Shown here piece after piece: positions 131-22,091 of a DNA stretch of 22,092 nt; the stretch's first letter is position 1, and every line of letters starts with the position of its first letter. This DNA is from a virus. The stretch spans positions 1 through 22,092 of IMG/VR virus record IMGVR_UViG_3300025079_001188; one strand, written 5' to 3'. A program made the position numbers and the translations under genes. Below the pieces are notes generated by a model, which was not told where the DNA came from, searched no databases, and saw only the letters and a program-made list of their open reading frames with translations.

Positions 131-159
131 TTGATTTACTTATAATAGTAGCGTATAAT
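131..159 (+). promoter_or_regulatory. Sigma70-like promoter for queD
   Basis: TTGATT (131-136), a 17-base spacer and TATAAT (154-159) make a good match to the bacterial sigma70 consensus. The -10 box ends 6 bases before the ATG at 166, so transcription would begin at or very near the start codon. No Shine-Dalgarno sequence lies in between. Confidence 0.6.
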
Positions 160-1704: not shown

Positions 1705-1732
1705 TTGAAACGCGTTATAAGGCATATATAAT
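1705..1732 (+). promoter_or_regulatory. Sigma70-like promoter for queE
   Basis: TTGAAA (1705-1710), a 16-base spacer and TATAAT (1727-1732) lie between the divergent phoH and queE starts. The -10 box ends 8 bases before ATG 1741, giving a near-leaderless transcript. It probably drives queE and the HNH gene. Confidence 0.6.
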
Positions 1733-3103: not shown

Positions 3104-3111
3104 ATTAAATA
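3104..3111 (+). promoter_or_regulatory. Late-type box (ATTAAATA) before the P-loop gene
   Basis: ATTAAATA ends exactly 5 bases before ATG 3117, the same geometry as at the portal-region genes. It differs from T4 TATAAATA at its second base. Confidence 0.45.
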
Positions 3112-3848: not shown

Positions 3849-4421
3849 TTCTAATTTAAATCCAATATTTGCTGCTGCTGCAGCTCTTTGATCAGTGACA
3901 GGGTCTACAACAGAAAGTTCAACAAAGTTAGTACTTCTATCTGATAATACGATCATAGCTATATCACCTGCTGTATTTATAATACTTGCAGATGGTAATA
4001 CTAAATAATCTTCTGTTAAAAAGTTAGATATAAAATTGAATCTAATAATACCTCCATCTACTTCAGCTGAAGCAATATTATTACTCTTATGAATACGTAC
4101 ACCGTGTTCATCCCAAGCAGATAGTGTAAATAAAGCTTTTGTATTAGATGTTATAACAGATGAACTAAGAGCATCAACTGAGTTATTTAATGCGGAGCTA
4201 AGAGTATCGAAACTACTTGATAGAGCAGCAATATCTGTAGTATTAGTTGATAAAGTTGATCCAAATGTTGTATTATCAACACTTATAACAAAATTTTCAA
4301 AATCTAAAATATTAGTACCATTTTCTGTTTCTATTAATAATAGATCACCATTTGATATAGAAAAAATCTCAGGTAATTCAGTTACATTATAAACAATACT
4401 ATCACGGTTAGTGCACGGCAT
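3840..4421 (-). CDS. Putative late structural or fibre-like protein with coiled coil, 193 aa
   Basis: No family is recognised. From ATG 4421 the product has an N-terminal beta-like region (SISNGDLLLIETENGTNILDF about 21-41), a Ser/Leu/Asp heptad-like stretch at about 56-89 (DIAALSSSFDTLSSAL and NSVDALSSSV), and a C-terminal domain beginning FTLSAWDEHGVRI and ending ANIGFKLESF. A short coiled coil between beta-rich domains is typical of trimeric fibre, neck-fibre or decoration proteins. A longer frame reaches 4640, but it would run antisense through the glycosyltransferase, and the perfect late promoter TATAAATA sits 5 bases before ATG 4421, fixing this start. The late promoter supports a virion role. 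It is divergent from the glycan operon. Confidence 0.7.
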   Translation of the reverse strand: MPCTNRDSIVYNVTELPEIFSISNGDLLLIETENGTNILDFENFVISVDNTTFGSTLSTNTTDIAALSSSFDTLSSALNNSVDALSSSVITSNTKALFTLSAWDEHGVRIHKSNNIASAEVDGGIIRFNFISNFLTEDYLVLPSASIINTAGDIAMIVLSDRSTNFVELSVVDPVTDQRAAAAANIGFKLESF

Positions 4422-4426
4422 GTATA

Positions 4427-4434
4427 TATTTATA
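4427..4434 (-). promoter_or_regulatory. Perfect T4-type late promoter TATAAATA
   Basis: The minus strand reads GGTATAAATATATACATG, with the T4 late consensus TATAAATA ending 5 bases before ATG 4421. T4 late promoters are read by host polymerase carrying gp55 and gp33 with the sliding clamp. Initiation would fall at or next to the start codon. Confidence 0.75.
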
Positions 4435-4470
4435 CCAAAGATAGTTGATTCTAACCTACTTTGGTATAAA
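4429..4470. repeat. 12-bp perfect inverted repeat forming mirrored promoters
   Basis: TTTATACCAAAG (4429-4440) and CTTTGGTATAAA (4459-4470) are exact inverted copies around an 18-base spacer. Each arm provides CTTTGGTATAAA reading outward, toward the minus-strand gene at 4421 and the plus-strand operon at 4480. It may be a shared regulator or polymerase site, or a duplicated promoter. Confidence 0.7.
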
Positions 4471-4477
4471 ATATAAT
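4465..4477 (+). promoter_or_regulatory. Promoter for the glycan operon (TATAAAATATAAT)
   Basis: TATAAAATA (4465-4473) overlaps TATAAT (4472-4477), directly before ATG 4480. The upstream TTGATT (4445-4450) is spaced 14 or 21 bases from these boxes, so a sigma70 reading is poor. The mirrored CTTTGGTATAAA arm suggests a late-type promoter with one base changed from TATAAATA. Confidence 0.5.
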
Positions 4478-4479
4478 AT

Positions 4480-6081
4480 ATGGGCAAAATTGGTGTTGGT
4501 ATTGTTACATGTGATAGAGTAGATATGTTTAATATTTGCTTTGAATCGCTAAGCGATGAATGGTATGATGAATTAGTTGTTATTGATGATGGTATAGAAG
4601 AATACCCGCTAAAGAGACGAGGAGCTGAGTTTATACGCACAACTGGTCGGATTGGTGTAGGTAAAGCTAAAAATGCTGCTATACAAAATCTGTTAGATAA
4701 AGATTGTGATTACATTATTCTCGTTGAAGATGATATGATCTTTAAGGGTAATTTGTTTGCTGAATATATAAAAGCTTATAAGAAAACAGGTATACATCAC
4801 TTTATGTTTGGATATCACGGACCGGCAAATAAAGCAGGTATTAGTGGAGGTAAACCAGTACCGAGAGGAGTTGTAGAATATGGAGATGGTATTAAATTAG
4901 CGCTTAACCAACATTGTGTTGGAGCTGTAACTTTTTATACCAGAGAATCATTAGAAGTTGTTGGTCTATATGATGAGCAATACACTAATGCATTTGAGCA
5001 TGTGGATCATTCATATATGCTAGCCAAAAGAGGGTATAGTACTCCATATTGGTGGTGGGCTGATATTGCTAATAGTACAGATTTTGTAAATGAGCAAAAA
5101 TGTTCTGAAGAATCGTCTGCAATAAGACCACTTAGTGACTGGCAATCTAATATAAATAAAGCGAGTAAATATTTTATAGAGAAGAACGGGAAGCATCCAG
5201 TTGATGTTCCAAATATGCCATTTAATTATGTTCAGGATTTTCTTAAGACTAAAAAATTAAACCCAGCCATATCCTTTATAGTCCATTATAGAAAGGATAC
5301 TGAAGAAAGATTAGATAATTTACATATAGTATATGAGTACTATAAGGTTATATACCCTAATTGTGAATTTATATTTGTTGAAGATGATTCAGAAAAAACA
5401 ATCGAGCATCTAGTAAAAGAAGATGATACTTACGTCTTCTTTAATAATGATGGTGTATATCGTAAATGTGAGGCTTATAATATAGGATTTAAAGCTTCAA
5501 CAAATGATATAGTATGCTTTTTAGATATAGATTGCTTAGTAAGTATAAATAGTTTACTTACATCAATTAAGGCTCTAAAGTCAGTAGAAGATGCTTTAAT
5601 TATAGGTTATAATGGTGTCGCTATTTATATAGAATATAATTTAAAAAACGCTACTCAGCACTTAACAGGCATAAATTTATTCAATAGTTTAACTTTAAAT
5701 GTTGATAAGACAAATATAACTTCTTTATATAATAATAAGTATTATACTATTGGTAATACTGAGGCTGTTGGAGGATGTGTTATAGCTTTACGCGATACAA
5801 TTGATAAAGTTAATGGGTTTAATCCAAACTTTATAGGTTGGGGATATGAAGATAATGAAATGATTTCACGTTGTAGAATTTTAGGATGTAAGGTTATATC
5901 GGTAGGTGCTGGTGATTTAAATTTAGATAATGTTTTGTTTCACTTACCTCATGAAGATACATATAAAGTAGCGTTAACTGATAAAAGTCAACATGAATTC
6001 TATAAGAGTAACTGGGAAGAAGTTTCAAAAGTAGAAAAAATGAATCAAAAAGAACTTAAAAAATATATAAAATCATGGTAG
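4480..6081 (+). CDS. Tandem two-domain GT2-type glycosyltransferase
   Basis: The 533-residue protein carries two GT-A units. The first (about 1-205) starts IGVGIVTCDRVDMF and has the metal- and nucleotide-binding motif VEDDM (82-86) with acceptor-region FEHVDHSYMLAKRGY. The second (about 262-490) starts ISFIVHYRKDTEERL, has DID (349-351) in place of DXD, and ends with VGGCVIALRDTIDKVNGF and GWGYEDNEM (453-461), the C-terminal motif of galactosyltransferase-like enzymes. The two units probably add two sugars, like chondroitin-synthase-style fusions. It opens a plus-strand operon; the stop overlaps the next ATG by 7 bases. The sugar donor and acceptor cannot be read. No membrane segment is apparent, so it likely acts in the cytoplasm. 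Confidence 0.85.
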   Translation: MGKIGVGIVTCDRVDMFNICFESLSDEWYDELVVIDDGIEEYPLKRRGAEFIRTTGRIGVGKAKNAAIQNLLDKDCDYIILVEDDMIFKGNLFAEYIKAYKKTGIHHFMFGYHGPANKAGISGGKPVPRGVVEYGDGIKLALNQHCVGAVTFYTRESLEVVGLYDEQYTNAFEHVDHSYMLAKRGYSTPYWWWADIANSTDFVNEQKCSEESSAIRPLSDWQSNINKASKYFIEKNGKHPVDVPNMPFNYVQDFLKTKKLNPAISFIVHYRKDTEERLDNLHIVYEYYKVIYPNCEFIFVEDDSEKTIEHLVKEDDTYVFFNNDGVYRKCEAYNIGFKASTNDIVCFLDIDCLVSINSLLTSIKALKSVEDALIIGYNGVAIYIEYNLKNATQHLTGINLFNSLTLNVDKTNITSLYNNKYYTIGNTEAVGGCVIALRDTIDKVNGFNPNFIGWGYEDNEMISRCRILGCKVISVGAGDLNLDNVLFHLPHEDTYKVALTDKSQHEFYKSNWEEVSKVEKMNQKELKKYIKSW

Positions 6082-8632: not shown

Positions 8633-9250
8633 ATGGGTGATATAAAAATATATGATATAGGTCAAATAATTGATAGATGTAAGTCACGGTTCTTTATTGA
8701 AACTGGCACTTTATTAGGTGATACAGTACAACATGTACAGCAATATAACTTTGAAAAAATTATTTCTTTTGAGATAATAGAAGAGCTAGCAGATAAAGCC
8801 AATACCCGATTTATAGAAGATAACCGCGTAGAGATTATTTTAGGTGATTCATCTAAAGTATTACCAAAAAGTTTAAACAAATTAGATGGTAATGCTATTT
8901 TTTGGTTAGATGCTCATTTTCCTGGCGCAGATATAGGAATTAATAATTATACGGATGATATAGAAACTGATACCAACTTACCGCTAGAGAAAGAAATTAG
9001 AGCAATCGCAGAACGTATAGGTAAATATAATGATGTATTGATTATTGATGATCTTTGGATTTACGAAGATGGTGATTGGGAGTGGGGCACGTTCGATAAT
9101 CATATGTCTAAGCATGGTCATGCTGTAAAACGGTCTGATCTTTGTGGTGGTGATACGAGCTTTATAAGAGATCTCTTTAGTGAAACTCATAATATAAAAG
9201 TAATAAACCGATATCAAGGTAGTTTGGTATTAATACCTAAAGATACTTGA
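8633..9250 (+). CDS. Class I SAM-dependent methyltransferase-like protein (paralogue of 7609)
   Basis: The 205-residue product has FFIETGTLLGDTVQHV (about 20-35) as SAM motif I, IISFEIIEEL as motif II, a VEIILGDSS strand, IFWLDAHFPGAD as the motif IV-like strand and VLIIDDLWIY. These line up with the 7609 protein, so the pair probably arose by duplication or joint acquisition of the same family. An insertion after WLDAH (GINNYTDDIETDTNLPLEKE) and a long WIYEDGDWEWGTF segment distinguish it and could form an acceptor site. Sugar O-methylation is a reasonable inference; the acceptor is unknown. Confidence 0.63.
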   Translation: MGDIKIYDIGQIIDRCKSRFFIETGTLLGDTVQHVQQYNFEKIISFEIIEELADKANTRFIEDNRVEIILGDSSKVLPKSLNKLDGNAIFWLDAHFPGADIGINNYTDDIETDTNLPLEKEIRAIAERIGKYNDVLIIDDLWIYEDGDWEWGTFDNHMSKHGHAVKRSDLCGGDTSFIRDLFSETHNIKVINRYQGSLVLIPKDT

Positions 9251-9281
9251 TAAATAAGCAATTTACATTATCATATAATAT

Positions 9282-12857: not shown

Positions 12858-12885
12858 TTGATAAGTGCTCAATCGAAACTATAAT
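12858..12885 (+). promoter_or_regulatory. Sigma70-like promoter after the glycan cassette
   Basis: TTGATA (12858-12863), a 16-base spacer and TATAAT (12880-12885) occupy the 41-base gap. The -10 box ends 5 bases before ATG 12891. It likely starts an early replication/chaperone unit. Confidence 0.62.
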
Positions 12886-12890
12886 TAGGT

Positions 12891-13472
12891 ATGATTATTG
12901 ATCAGCAAGTATATGACGGTGATTTTATTCATAAGCGTTTTGCATATGAACAATTTCGTAAAGAAGTATCTCCTTTCGGTAATATTGTAGCGTTTCGCGC
13001 GCCTATGTATGTTAAAGAAAATCTTATTGATCTGGAAGATACATTAACTAACGATTATATTCATTCAGCAGACTCTATTAATTTCTGTTGGGAGATTCCC
13101 AACTTATGCCCCTTTGGAGCTGTATCGTTTCAACGGCTATTTAATACATCTATTGCGCAAGTATTGGCAGGTATTATTGAAAGAGATATTATAGTTGATG
13201 GTGATGATCTTATGGTTAATGCTAAGTTTATCGGATCTGATAAGAAGGTTCATGAGCAAGGTAAAGTAAGTGTATCGATTACATATAGTAAAGATAGCGT
13301 TGCTCTTGGTCATACAGGTATTAATATTAAGGCTGGTGATAAAGCTCCCGGATTTGCTTACTCATCTGAATTAACTGATCATGAAGTGCAAACGTTTATG
13401 ACTAAAGTTATTGATCTATTTAACCATGAAGTTAAAGATCAGTGGATTGCTACAACAAAGATTATTACTTAA
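12891..13472 (+). CDS. Conserved phage protein of unknown function, 193 aa
   Basis: The protein begins MIIDQQVYDGDFIHKRFAYEQ and contains IVAFRAPMYVKENLIDLED, FCWEIPNLCPFGAVSFQRLF, IIVDGDDLMVNAKFIG and LGHTGINIKAGDKAPGFAYS. I recall the overall pattern from T4-like marine phages, possibly the DUF366 group, but cannot confirm that here. The dense invariant-looking Asp, His, Gly and Trp residues suggest an enzyme rather than a structural protein. It is driven by the promoter at 12858-12885 and overlaps the clamp-loader-like gene by one base, so it is likely an early replication-period protein. Confidence 0.6.
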   Translation: MIIDQQVYDGDFIHKRFAYEQFRKEVSPFGNIVAFRAPMYVKENLIDLEDTLTNDYIHSADSINFCWEIPNLCPFGAVSFQRLFNTSIAQVLAGIIERDIIVDGDDLMVNAKFIGSDKKVHEQGKVSVSITYSKDSVALGHTGINIKAGDKAPGFAYSSELTDHEVQTFMTKVIDLFNHEVKDQWIATTKIIT

Positions 13473-16646: not shown

Positions 16647-17774
16647 TTGAAAAAATATACTTACAATTTTGAGATTAAAGATCTGCTAACTCAATTTGTT
16701 GCTGCGTTTGACGATACAGTAATTAAGCGTTACGATAAAAACGGTAATGCAAAACAAGAGATAGAGGTTAGATATGTCTTCGCTCCAAAGCAAAGAGTGA
16801 TGTATGATATTGTTAATAAGGCTCAAAATATAACTCTACCAGTTGTAACAGTAGACTTAACATCTGTAGCCTATGATGATAGTAGAGTTTTTAATAAGTT
16901 AAATAACATACATAATTATATTAATGATGTAGATAATACAAAAGTACATATGCCTGTACCTGTTAACTTAACTGTTAAAATGTCAATGCTTTGTAGGTAT
17001 ATGCAAGATCTAGAACAGATCATAACTAACTTTGTACCTTACTCTAATCCATATATTGTAATAGCATGGCAAGAACCAACTGATACAGGTAACATAAATG
17101 AGATACGTACTGAAGTAGAGTGGGATCAGTCTATATCTATGAACCCGCCGACGGAGTTAAGCTATAGTGAAAAATTTAGAGCTGTAGCAGATACAACTTT
17201 TACAATAAAGGGTTGGTTGTTTAGAGATAGAAACGAAGTTACAAAGCCTATTTACTTTATTGAGAATAATTTTATAAATACTAGACAAGATTTTAATTTT
17301 AGTCAACCTATATCTAGTTTAGATTATAGCAGCTTCTTTAACAGTTTAACTAGTGTAACAGATACAGATACGTTTACATTATCAGGTATACCTAATATTA
17401 CAAATATATATTATAACACGACAGGTTCTCAGTTAGAGACTAGAGCCCCGCGAACTATAAATAGATCCGTCTCCGGTCTGAATCTTTACAACTATAACTT
17501 ATTAGGTGAGAATTTTAACAAGACTCAATTAGTAATGTTAAGCTCAAATAATGCGACGTTAACAAATAACTTTACAGCTTTTGATACAACATATACCGGA
17601 TCTGCATCTGGGTTCTTATTACCTAGTAGCAATTTTACGATCCTATCAGATAATGTAATGAATATAACTATACCAGCTCTTTCAGGTGATGGTAAGTTTG
17701 ATATAATAATTAAAAACCCAGCAGGTTGGTCTTCTACCCAATCTATTGCTGGGTTCTTCTTCACTTCAGAATAA
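16647..17774 (+). CDS. 15: Tail sheath stabiliser/completion protein (gp15-like) with extra C-terminal domain
   Basis: T4 gp15 caps the tail tube and sheath and joins it to the neck. The N-terminal ~220 residues follow the gp15 order: a first helical segment LLTQFVAAFDDTVIKRYD, EIEVRYVFAPKQRVMYDI, PVPVNLTVKMSMLCRYMQDLEQII, FVPYSNPYIVIAW, EVEWDQSISM, and ADTTFTIKGWLF. T4 gp15 has about 270 residues; this has 375. The extra C-terminal ~120 residues (YNLLGENFNKTQLVMLSS, MNITIPALSGDGKFDIIIKN, NPAGWSS) look like an IPT/TIG immunoglobulin-like domain, perhaps surface-exposed. TTG is forced as the start: a stop codon lies two codons upstream and the first in-frame ATG is about 50 codons in. Its stop codon lies within the next promoter. 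Confidence 0.8.
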   Translation: MKKYTYNFEIKDLLTQFVAAFDDTVIKRYDKNGNAKQEIEVRYVFAPKQRVMYDIVNKAQNITLPVVTVDLTSVAYDDSRVFNKLNNIHNYINDVDNTKVHMPVPVNLTVKMSMLCRYMQDLEQIITNFVPYSNPYIVIAWQEPTDTGNINEIRTEVEWDQSISMNPPTELSYSEKFRAVADTTFTIKGWLFRDRNEVTKPIYFIENNFINTRQDFNFSQPISSLDYSSFFNSLTSVTDTDTFTLSGIPNITNIYYNTTGSQLETRAPRTINRSVSGLNLYNYNLLGENFNKTQLVMLSSNNATLTNNFTAFDTTYTGSASGFLLPSSNFTILSDNVMNITIPALSGDGKFDIIIKNPAGWSSTQSIAGFFFTSE

Positions 17775-17777
17775 ATA
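17770..17777 (+). promoter_or_regulatory. Late-type promoter AATAAATA for the portal gene
   Basis: AATAAATA ends 6 bases before ATG 17784, and the stop codon of the gp15-like gene is embedded in it. It differs from T4 TATAAATA only at the first base. Confidence 0.65.
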
Positions 17778-17783
17778 ATAGCG

Positions 17784-19571
17784 ATGCCCGACACTTCACC
17801 AAATCAAAATAAATCATACGTAAGCAATGACGGCCGGGGGTCTACTTTCGGTAGAAATCTTGTTCAGTATATTCAAAATCGTTTGCCATATACTAGTTCT
17901 TTAGATGAGGGCGATAGCCTAAATCCAAAATATAAATATTTTAACAAGGCAGGCACACGTCGTGCTGAAGCTTTAGCTAAAACATCTGTATCTGCATCTA
18001 ATCCATATAATAATATGGCCATAGGAGACTTTGGAAAAGATACTTCCTTTTCAGATGTTATGTATGCGAGCCTTGATGAAAATAAAGGCGGTAGGTTACG
18101 TGATTATAGGGTAATGGCAGCTTATTCAGAGTGCTCTGACGCTTTAGATGAGATTTGCGATGAAGCAATAAACATCGACGAATCTGGCCATTCTGCTAAA
18201 TTACTATTTGATAATATAGATTTAAGTGTTGATGAAAAAGGTGATATTGAAAATGAATTTAGTAAATTCATTGACTTTTTTGATCTTAAAACAAAAGGAT
18301 GGCAGTACTTTAGACAGCTACTCGTTGAGGGTGAAGTATTCTTCGAGTTGATTCTACATGAAGATTATACTAAAGAAGGTGCATTAGGAGTTGTTAACAT
18401 ACCATCAGAAATTATCGACCCTGTATATAATAATATACAGAATATGATAACGAAAGGCTACATTTATAAGAAGCCTATTTTCAGTCAAACGCAACCAGAT
18501 AAGGTAGAAAAGTATGAATTCATACCTATGGATGCTAATCAGGTCGTGTATGTTAACTCTGGAGTTTATAATGAGACAAAAAACTTTGCTGTGCCGTTTT
18601 TAGAAAACGCACGTAGACCATATAGGCAGTTATCTCTCATTGAAGATGCTATTGTTATTTACCGTTTAGTTAGAGCTCCAGAACGTTTAGTTTTTAACGT
18701 AGATGTAGGTAATATGGCACCACCAAAAGCTGAAGCTTATCTAAGAAAGCTTATTCAAAACTACTGGTCCCGTAAGACATTTGATATAGATCAGACTGAT
18801 GTTGTTAAAAAGTTTAATCCTCAATCTATGCTTGATGCGTTCTGGTTTGCAAAGCGTCAAGGATCAGAAGGAACTTCTGTTAATCAGTTACAAGGTGGTG
18901 CTAATTTAGGTGAGCTTAGTGATTTAATGTACTTTATTAAGAAGCTTTACAGAGCACTTAAAGTACCGGCTACTCGTATTGATCCAGAAGATCGTACAGT
19001 TGATCAGTCAACCGTATTACGTGAAGAATTAAAGTTTGCAAAGTTTGTTATTAGGCAGCAACAGAGATTCGCCGGCGGTATCAAAAGAGGATTTATAACT
19101 CATCTTAAATTAAGAGATATGTGGGATAAGTATGATCTTAACGAACTTAATTTAGACGTTAACTTTAATGTACCTACTAATTTCTTTGAGTTAAGAGAGG
19201 GTCAGCGCTTAGAGCTTAAGGCATCTAATTTTAACAGTCTCGCTTCTAATGAATTTGTTTCTACTACATATGCGCAAAAGAAATACTTAGGTTGGAAGGA
19301 TAAAGATATACTTGCTAATAGAGAGTTTCTTCGTAAGGATGCTGAAATGCAATGGGAGTTAGGTCAAATACAAGCAGCGGGTCCAACTTGGAAAGAGCAG
19401 ATGGTTGCCGGTAATCTAGCGGGTGAAGGTGAAGCTGCTGTTGGAGGTGAAGGTGGTGGTGTTGCAGGCGGTGGTGGAGCTGTGCCAGAGTTTGGTGGTG
19501 GTCCAGCTGCAGAAGGGGAAGCCCCAGAAGCAGAAGCTCCTGAGGCGGTTGATCCAGTTGATGAAGTTTAA
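17784..19571 (+). CDS. 20: Portal protein (gp20-like)
   Basis: The portal forms the dodecameric ring at one capsid vertex through which DNA is packaged and to which the tail attaches. Diagnostic segments are RDYRVMAAYSECSDALDEIC with DEAI, KGWQYFRQLLVEGEVFFELI, ARRPYRQLSLIEDAIVIYRL, RAPERLVFNVDVGNM, NYWSRKTFDIDQTD, and KLYRALKVPATRIDPED followed by FAKFVIRQQQRF, all as in T4 gp20. It has 595 residues against 524 in T4. Much of the excess is a low-complexity Gly/Ala/Glu/Pro tail of about 60 residues, with the richest part near 545-595. The start is ATG after a late-type promoter. A minus-strand gene ends three bases beyond its stop. Confidence 0.95.
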   Translation: MPDTSPNQNKSYVSNDGRGSTFGRNLVQYIQNRLPYTSSLDEGDSLNPKYKYFNKAGTRRAEALAKTSVSASNPYNNMAIGDFGKDTSFSDVMYASLDENKGGRLRDYRVMAAYSECSDALDEICDEAINIDESGHSAKLLFDNIDLSVDEKGDIENEFSKFIDFFDLKTKGWQYFRQLLVEGEVFFELILHEDYTKEGALGVVNIPSEIIDPVYNNIQNMITKGYIYKKPIFSQTQPDKVEKYEFIPMDANQVVYVNSGVYNETKNFAVPFLENARRPYRQLSLIEDAIVIYRLVRAPERLVFNVDVGNMAPPKAEAYLRKLIQNYWSRKTFDIDQTDVVKKFNPQSMLDAFWFAKRQGSEGTSVNQLQGGANLGELSDLMYFIKKLYRALKVPATRIDPEDRTVDQSTVLREELKFAKFVIRQQQRFAGGIKRGFITHLKLRDMWDKYDLNELNLDVNFNVPTNFFELREGQRLELKASNFNSLASNEFVSTTYAQKKYLGWKDKDILANREFLRKDAEMQWELGQIQAAGPTWKEQMVAGNLAGEGEAAVGGEGGGVAGGGGAVPEFGGGPAAEGEAPEAEAPEAVDPVDEV

Positions 19572-19789: not shown

Positions 19790-19798
19790 GACTAAATA
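19790..19798 (+). promoter_or_regulatory. Late-type promoter GACTAAATA for the neck-protein gene
   Basis: GACTAAATA ends 5 bases before ATG 19804. The identical nine bases recur with the same spacing before the gp21-like gene. Confidence 0.65.
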
Positions 19799-21396: not shown

Positions 21397-21405
21397 GACT
21401 AAATA
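21397..21405 (+). promoter_or_regulatory. Late-type promoter GACTAAATA for the protease gene
   Basis: GACTAAATA ends 5 bases before ATG 21411, identical to the box at 19790-19798. It sits in the 21-base gap after the gp4 stop. A second ATG at 21407 is out of frame. Confidence 0.65.
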
Positions 21406-22083: not shown

Positions 22084-22091
22084 TATAAATA
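22084..22091 (+). promoter_or_regulatory. Perfect T4-type late promoter at the right edge
   Basis: TATAAATA lies 7 bases after the gp21-like stop, at the edge of the window. By T4 gene order it should drive the scaffold or major capsid gene just outside. Confidence 0.75.

Follow-up and report, generated by a model that had tools for sequence, protein, structure and literature searches.

A compact divergent junction in an uncultured T4-like phage with putative early and late promoters set against the start codons

The DNA analysed here, referred to as the window, comprises the 22,092 nucleotides of IMG/VR virus record IMGVR_UViG_3300025079_001188, for which no near match was found among sequenced phages. 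At the locus of interest two genes diverge: a fibre-like (virion-like) gene on the minus strand, and on the plus strand a glycosyltransferase that heads a glycan operon (Table 1). The fibre-like gene has no Pfam or PHROG match and its protein none among the proteins of sequenced phages; its start codon is backed by the N-terminus MPC, which is invariant among seven homologues. An AlphaFold model of the protein displays a beta/long helix/beta pattern at low confidence, and with a mean pLDDT of 48 the model is too poor for a fold search.

Table 1. Coordinates of genes, promoter elements and repeat arms in the window
Feature	Position	Strand	Remarks
Early-type TTGATT-N17-TATAAT	131..159	+	6 nt before QueD-like ATG 166
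Early-type TTGAAA-N16-TATAAT	1705..1732	+	8 nt before QueE-like ATG 1741
Late-type octamer ATTAAATA	3104..3111	+	5 nt before ATG 3117, thymidylate-kinase-like gene
Fibre-like (virion-like) gene, 193 aa	3840..4421	-	ATG at 4421
T4-type late promoter octamer TATAAATA	4427..4434	-	Perfect match; gap of 5 nt (4422-4426) to ATG 4421, kept in relatives
Repeat minus arm, CTTTGGTATAAA	4429..4440	-	CTTTGG portion not conserved
-35 element TTGATT, glycosyltransferase promoter	4445..4450	+	TTGAnn/TTGCCA with N16 conserved in relatives
Repeat plus arm, CTTTGGTATAAA	4459..4470	+	CTTTAG in nearest relatives where the window has CTTTGG
-10 element TAAAAT	4467..4472	+	16 nt from -35, 7 nt from ATG 4480; predicted leaderless or near-leaderless
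Glycosyltransferase, glycan operon gene 1	4480..6081	+	Pfam/PHROG matches
Early-type TTGATA-N16-TATCAT	9247..9274	+	7 nt before epimerase ATG 9282, within glycan operon
Early-type TTGATA-N16-TATAAT	12858..12885	+	5 nt before ATG 12891
Late-type octamer AATAAATA	17770..17777	+	6 nt before portal (gp20) ATG 17784
Late-type octamer ACTAAATA	19791..19798	+	5 nt before neck protein (gp13-like, Ad2) ATG 19804
Late-type octamer ACTAAATA	21398..21405	+	5 nt before head maturation protease ATG 21411

The octamer upstream of the fibre-like gene sits unusually close to its start codon by the standards of T4. The T4 late octamer occupies positions -13 to -6 (PMC1524935), and a gap of five nucleotides therefore places the predicted RNA start on the A of ATG 4421; upstream of this codon there is no Shine-Dalgarno sequence. 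Counted across the window, TATAAATA is not enriched (10 occurrences against 8.0 +/- 2.9), nor does it outnumber the reversed pattern used as a control; genome-wide counts are therefore uninformative, and only position before start codons carries information. The perfect late promoter that a sequence-only reading had assigned to the minus-strand gene is borne out, in that the octamer is of T4 type, relatives conserve it, and these phages encode the late sigma factor gp55 (phrog_234, present in 9 of the 14 relative contigs searched; within the 22-kb window it would not be expected).

On the plus strand, the element TTGATT-N16-TAAAAT is, judged on its sequence, a sigma-70 (early-type) promoter of the glycosyltransferase. 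It scores 9/12, and six such matches in 1.2 kb compare with 7.4 in shuffles; the promoter is thus ordinary by score and its case rests on conservation and position. No Shine-Dalgarno sequence precedes ATG 4480 either, and by standard geometry both junction promoters are predicted to start RNA at the start codon or within about 2 nt of it.

Conservation was followed by scanning IMG/VR with the N-terminus of the glycosyltransferase, which yielded 49 loci. Those designated type A (L004-L016, L039, L041/42, L045/46, L049, L051) possess the divergent fibre-like gene, and in those designated type B (e.g. L017-L037) the glycosyltransferase directly follows the kinase. In all parsable type-A junctions, a TTGAnn-N16-TAAAAT/TATAAT pair lies 5-9 nt before the glycosyltransferase ATG, with TTGCCA serving as the -35 element in L041. 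On the minus side, the nearer relatives of the window keep NATAAATA 5 nt before the ATG and L051 has CATAAATA; L049 carries AATAAATA at a gap of 6, and L045 has no canonical late octamer on this side of the junction. The space from ATG to ATG is down to about 26-28 bp in L041, L045 and L049, where the early -35 element overlaps the minus start codon.

The junction had first drawn attention through its symmetry. As described at the outset, CTTTGGTATAAA is present exactly on both strands at an 18-nt spacing, forming a perfect 12-bp inverted repeat; the minus arm continues into TATAAATA (4434-4427) and the plus arm into TATAAAATATAAT, upstream of the glycosyltransferase ATG. If the loop is limited to <=40, the window contains two 12-bp inverted repeats without mismatch (the second at 870); order-1 Markov shuffles average 0.13, and 8% of them have one or more. 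Allowing <=2 mismatches, CTTTGGTATAAA itself has 11 matches against 5.7 +/- 2.3 in shuffles. The repeat is somewhat above chance expectation, an excess tempered because the promoter cores dictate half of each arm (the TATAAA half). A third perfect CTTTGGTATAAA lies in the window at 2089-2100 on the minus strand, within the QueE-like coding region, where its position suggests chance, and the whole palindrome has no other match in IMG/VR.

It had been proposed that the CTTTGG extension marks a factor-binding site or a recent duplication. In this account, a duplicated CTTTGGTATAAA element, bound by such a factor or by gp55, would drive both genes late, and the glycan operon would be co-expressed with virion proteins. 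We consider this highly improbable: the perfection of the repeat, rarer in Markov shuffles, and the perfect late promoter in its minus arm are what the account would expect, and against them stands the behaviour of CTTTGG. Of the relatives with both genes, none has CTTTGG in both arms, L004 reading CTCTTG (minus) and CTTTAG (plus), and L005 TTCAAC and TTGGAG, respectively; absence of the repeat from such relatives is what the proposal had itself named as its refutation. An alignment of 67 late octamers of the clade revealed no CTTTGG signal upstream of them, and together with the relatives and the IMG/VR scans this rules out CTTTGG as a conserved element. A separate scan of IMG/VR with CTTTGGTATAAATA found contigs among the matches listed, with no bearing on CTTTGG conservation. 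Nor is the late promoter once ascribed to the plus arm supported. This arm reads TATAAAAT, which is not an NTAAATA octamer, and lies 7 nt from the ATG as compared to the clade spacing of 5; what is conserved there is the putative early-type pair, of the kind also found before gp55, UvsX, SSB, QueD/E and nucleotide-sugar epimerases. The relatives have thus largely refuted the duplicated element. As far as their sequences tell, what they conserve is two different promoters and not the repeat, the mirror image being mostly coincidence and its CTTTGG halves a coincidence particular to one lineage.

Whether promoters abut start codons beyond this junction was queried in a clade set of 15 sources, the window included, with contigs of up to 209 kb and 1104 gene starts; these starts come from one simple first-ATG caller, the contigs are partial and the relatives are not mutually independent. 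The occurrence of WATAAATA upstream of start candidates peaks at a gap of exactly 5 (24 cases in G001, 14 in G005 and 10 in G007). When all hexamers were counted at all distances from the 1104 starts, with no prior use of the motif, TAAATA at gap 5 ranked first, with 147 occurrences against 3.9 expected. The next promoter hexamer, after TAAATA and its overlapping shifts, was TATAAT at gap 6 (47 against 3.6 expected), and TTGATT/TTGAAA was enriched at gap 28, which corresponds to a -35 element with a 16-nt spacer. In G001 alone, TAAATA occurs 41 times at gap 5 against 27 times summed across gaps 10-45, a count within one genome that is therefore independent of kinship between contigs. Early-type gaps are mostly 5-8 with a peak at 6, and late-type gaps are 5; two unrelated promoter classes thus converge on one base, which argues for an RNA start on the start codon. 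Numerous genes, either coupled or with neither motif, are unaccounted for by either promoter.

The two motifs distribute as promoters should. Divergent starts, which must have a promoter, carry one motif or the other in 47% of cases (late 32%, early 15%); for overlapping starts the figure is 3%. Genes of the late-type set include fibre, gp13 neck, portal, amidase/endolysin and homing endonucleases (HNH), plus genes of unassigned function; the early-type set comprises gp55, UvsX, SSB, QueD, QueE, exonuclease and nucleotide-sugar epimerases, and in several relative contigs the gp55 gene itself lies behind an early-type promoter that is predicted to be leaderless. SD-like motifs accompany 0-12% of clade genes as compared to 51% in T4. 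This near absence, along with the rigid spacing to the start codon, would also be expected were TAAATA-N5-ATG an A/T-rich signal for translation initiation, of the sort found in SD-less bacteria, with leadered transcripts arriving from elsewhere. That explanation is very unlikely, however, given that the hexamer is identical to the late promoter core of T4 and sits where T4 geometry predicts, that an independent -35/-10 pair converges likewise, and that the late motif, found at 32% of divergent against 1% of overlapping starts, follows late gene classes.

Other phages were passed through the same pipeline. T4 has no TAAATA at gap 5, 17 leadered cases and SD-like motifs in 51% of genes; VH7D has none at gap 5 and 10 leadered, two cyanophages together 3 at gap 5 and 18 leadered, Cr30 none at gap 5 and CPX one. 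HTVC008M is intermediate, with 9 at gap 5, 6 leadered and an SD frequency of 41%. A gut relative (L243) is SD-less and has TAAATA at gap 6; this contig, from a Lachnospiraceae MAG of goat colon, has a neck protein gene whose product is 40% identical, probably represents a T4-like phage caught in the binning, and points to a gut branch. When bacterial genomes were searched with the neck protein for a host, the only match was one goat-colon MAG contig, and a phage-encoded bS21 that might act as a translation helper was not found in 11 clade contigs. The spacer of the early-type promoters is an almost uniform 16 nt across the clade, not 17, with TTGAWW at -35, a combination that may be the signature of a host sigma factor. 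The largest contig, G001 (209 kb; L199-L200, L208), has about 25 tRNA genes, the majority grouped in a single cluster around 37-45 kb.

Further sites of both classes are dispersed across the window (Table 1). A second compact divergent junction at 1678-1741 sets an early/late pair back to back, with TAAATA 7 nt before the ATG of PhoH on the minus strand and the early-type promoter of QueE on the plus strand. The QueD-like and QueE-like genes (166-2499) both lie behind early-type promoters, as does the gene at 12891-13472; the former two suggest 7-deazaguanine DNA modification in the phage of the window. The last bases of the window (22084-22091) again read TATAAATA, from which the spacing rule predicts the next gene start at 22097, just outside; this gene is probably the scaffold.

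The early-type promoter bears on the timing of the glycan operon, for which late expression had been proposed. The operon's own promoter belongs to the early class and lends that proposal no support, but in the sub-lineage of the window the kinase gene upstream has a promoter of late type, which leaves a possible late route. Late RNA could read through into the operon from ATTAAATA-N5-ATG before kinase 3117, which is present in the window and its nearest relatives, crossing the fibre gene in antisense; an unlisted late site could have the same effect. Several type-B relatives, which lack the fibre gene, have the glycosyltransferase directly after that kinase. In the window, however, a strand switch and the conserved early-type promoter stand between, and in the type-A relatives L039, L041 and L049 the kinase is itself behind an early-type promoter. 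We regard a late operon by such a route as unlikely in the window, where the glycan operon is probably expressed early; since the promoter class of the kinase varies among relatives, timing may differ by lineage.

Taken together, a model for the junction emerges, in which we place good confidence: in a T4-like phage with leaderless mRNAs, positions 4421-4480 serve as a compact divergent promoter, late and gp55-dependent on the minus strand, early and sigma-70-dependent on the plus strand, with the same grammar holding clade-wide. The motifs, their spacing, conservation and enrichment, the gene classes and the presence of gp55 are observed, and from these we infer the 5' ends, the timing, the mutual exclusion and the mode of translation. 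Early in infection, a host sigma-70-type polymerase would read TTGATT-N16-TAAAAT and start RNA at the glycosyltransferase AUG or 1-2 bases before it. Late in infection, gp55 and the clamp machinery would read TATAAATA and initiate the fibre-like transcript on the A of its AUG. Ribosomes would initiate on the 5'-terminal AUG in the absence of a Shine-Dalgarno sequence. A distance of only some 10 bp (4434 to 4445) separates the two promoters, which probably makes joint occupancy impossible, and early use would yield to late use as gp55 accumulates. Across the clade, the corresponding grammar would be TAAATA-N5-ATG for late genes and TATAAT-N6-ATG for early genes.

T4 late transcription is a textbook system whose mRNAs are leadered and contain Shine-Dalgarno sequences. 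The clade resembles this gp55/gp33/gp45-dependent system in its octamer core (N-A/T/C-TAAATA in the clade), in the late-class genes downstream and in encoding gp55, and differs in position: for T4 octamers the distance to the start codon is about 14-35 nt, and half of T4 genes have SD-like motifs, whereas in the clade the gap is 5 and SD-like motifs are almost absent. The CTAAATA of the window's neck and protease genes is the form that Aeh1 is reported to use (PMC1524935). That bacteria have leaderless genes is well established (PMC3160421, PMC12340547), and the TA-led genes of Actinobacteria and Deinococcus-Thermus resemble those of the clade in having a -10 element a few nucleotides from the start codon, no SD and only ATG/GTG starts at the motif (PMC3160421, PMC12340547, PMC4633059); the clade differs in consisting of lytic phages with both host-type early promoters and promoters for their own late sigma factor. 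The start codons at TAAATA-N5 in the clade (171 ATG, 20 GTG and no TTG) agree with measurements on the leaderless mRNAs of mycobacteria, which follow an ATG/GTG rule (PMC4633059).

Among marine phages, HTVC008M and the cyanophages (Kyanoviridae) have TAAATA at gap 5, with no leader, in a minority of genes (9 in 100 kb of HTVC008M and 3 in two cyanophage segments); they also retain late genes with leaders, and 33-41% of their genes have SD-like motifs, unlike the almost wholly SD-less clade of the window. The nine TAAATA-N5-ATG starts of HTVC008M (L234), a cultured pelagiphage, include 6280, 7562, 18392 (minus strand) and 31132, stand beside leadered late genes and are candidates for leaderless late genes; one of the nine forms a divergent pair at 18916-18943. 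In P-SSM4 (L238), the plastoquinol terminal oxidase gene (PTOX) at 22316-22816 of the segment, record position 107316, a host-derived metabolic gene, has TATAAATA-N5-ATG and is a further leaderless late candidate. Phage transcripts have been mentioned in passing as often leaderless (PMC5312081), and searches of the openly available full-text literature brought up no account of late mRNAs without leaders in a T4-like phage. Start-codon-fused promoters may help explain why late-promoter detection by standard methods failed in a study of pelagimyophages (PMC7029224).

The phages of this clade most likely run both early and late programmes on leaderless mRNAs. We lean towards the broader view that this uncultured T4-like clade, which is widespread and has a relative in the gut, dropped leaders altogether, fusing its early host-sigma promoters and its gp55-dependent late promoters to start codons; short divergent junctions would then act as early-to-late switches at which only one promoter can be occupied at a time. 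The pattern hints at the translation habits of the host, presumably one whose ribosomes favour 5'-terminal AUGs. In uncultured phages, the spacing offers an easy guide to start codons and to early and late gene classes, and its predictions are testable in the cultured phage HTVC008M. A T4-type promoter locked to the start codon would mean that the starts of transcription and translation can merge across a phage genome.
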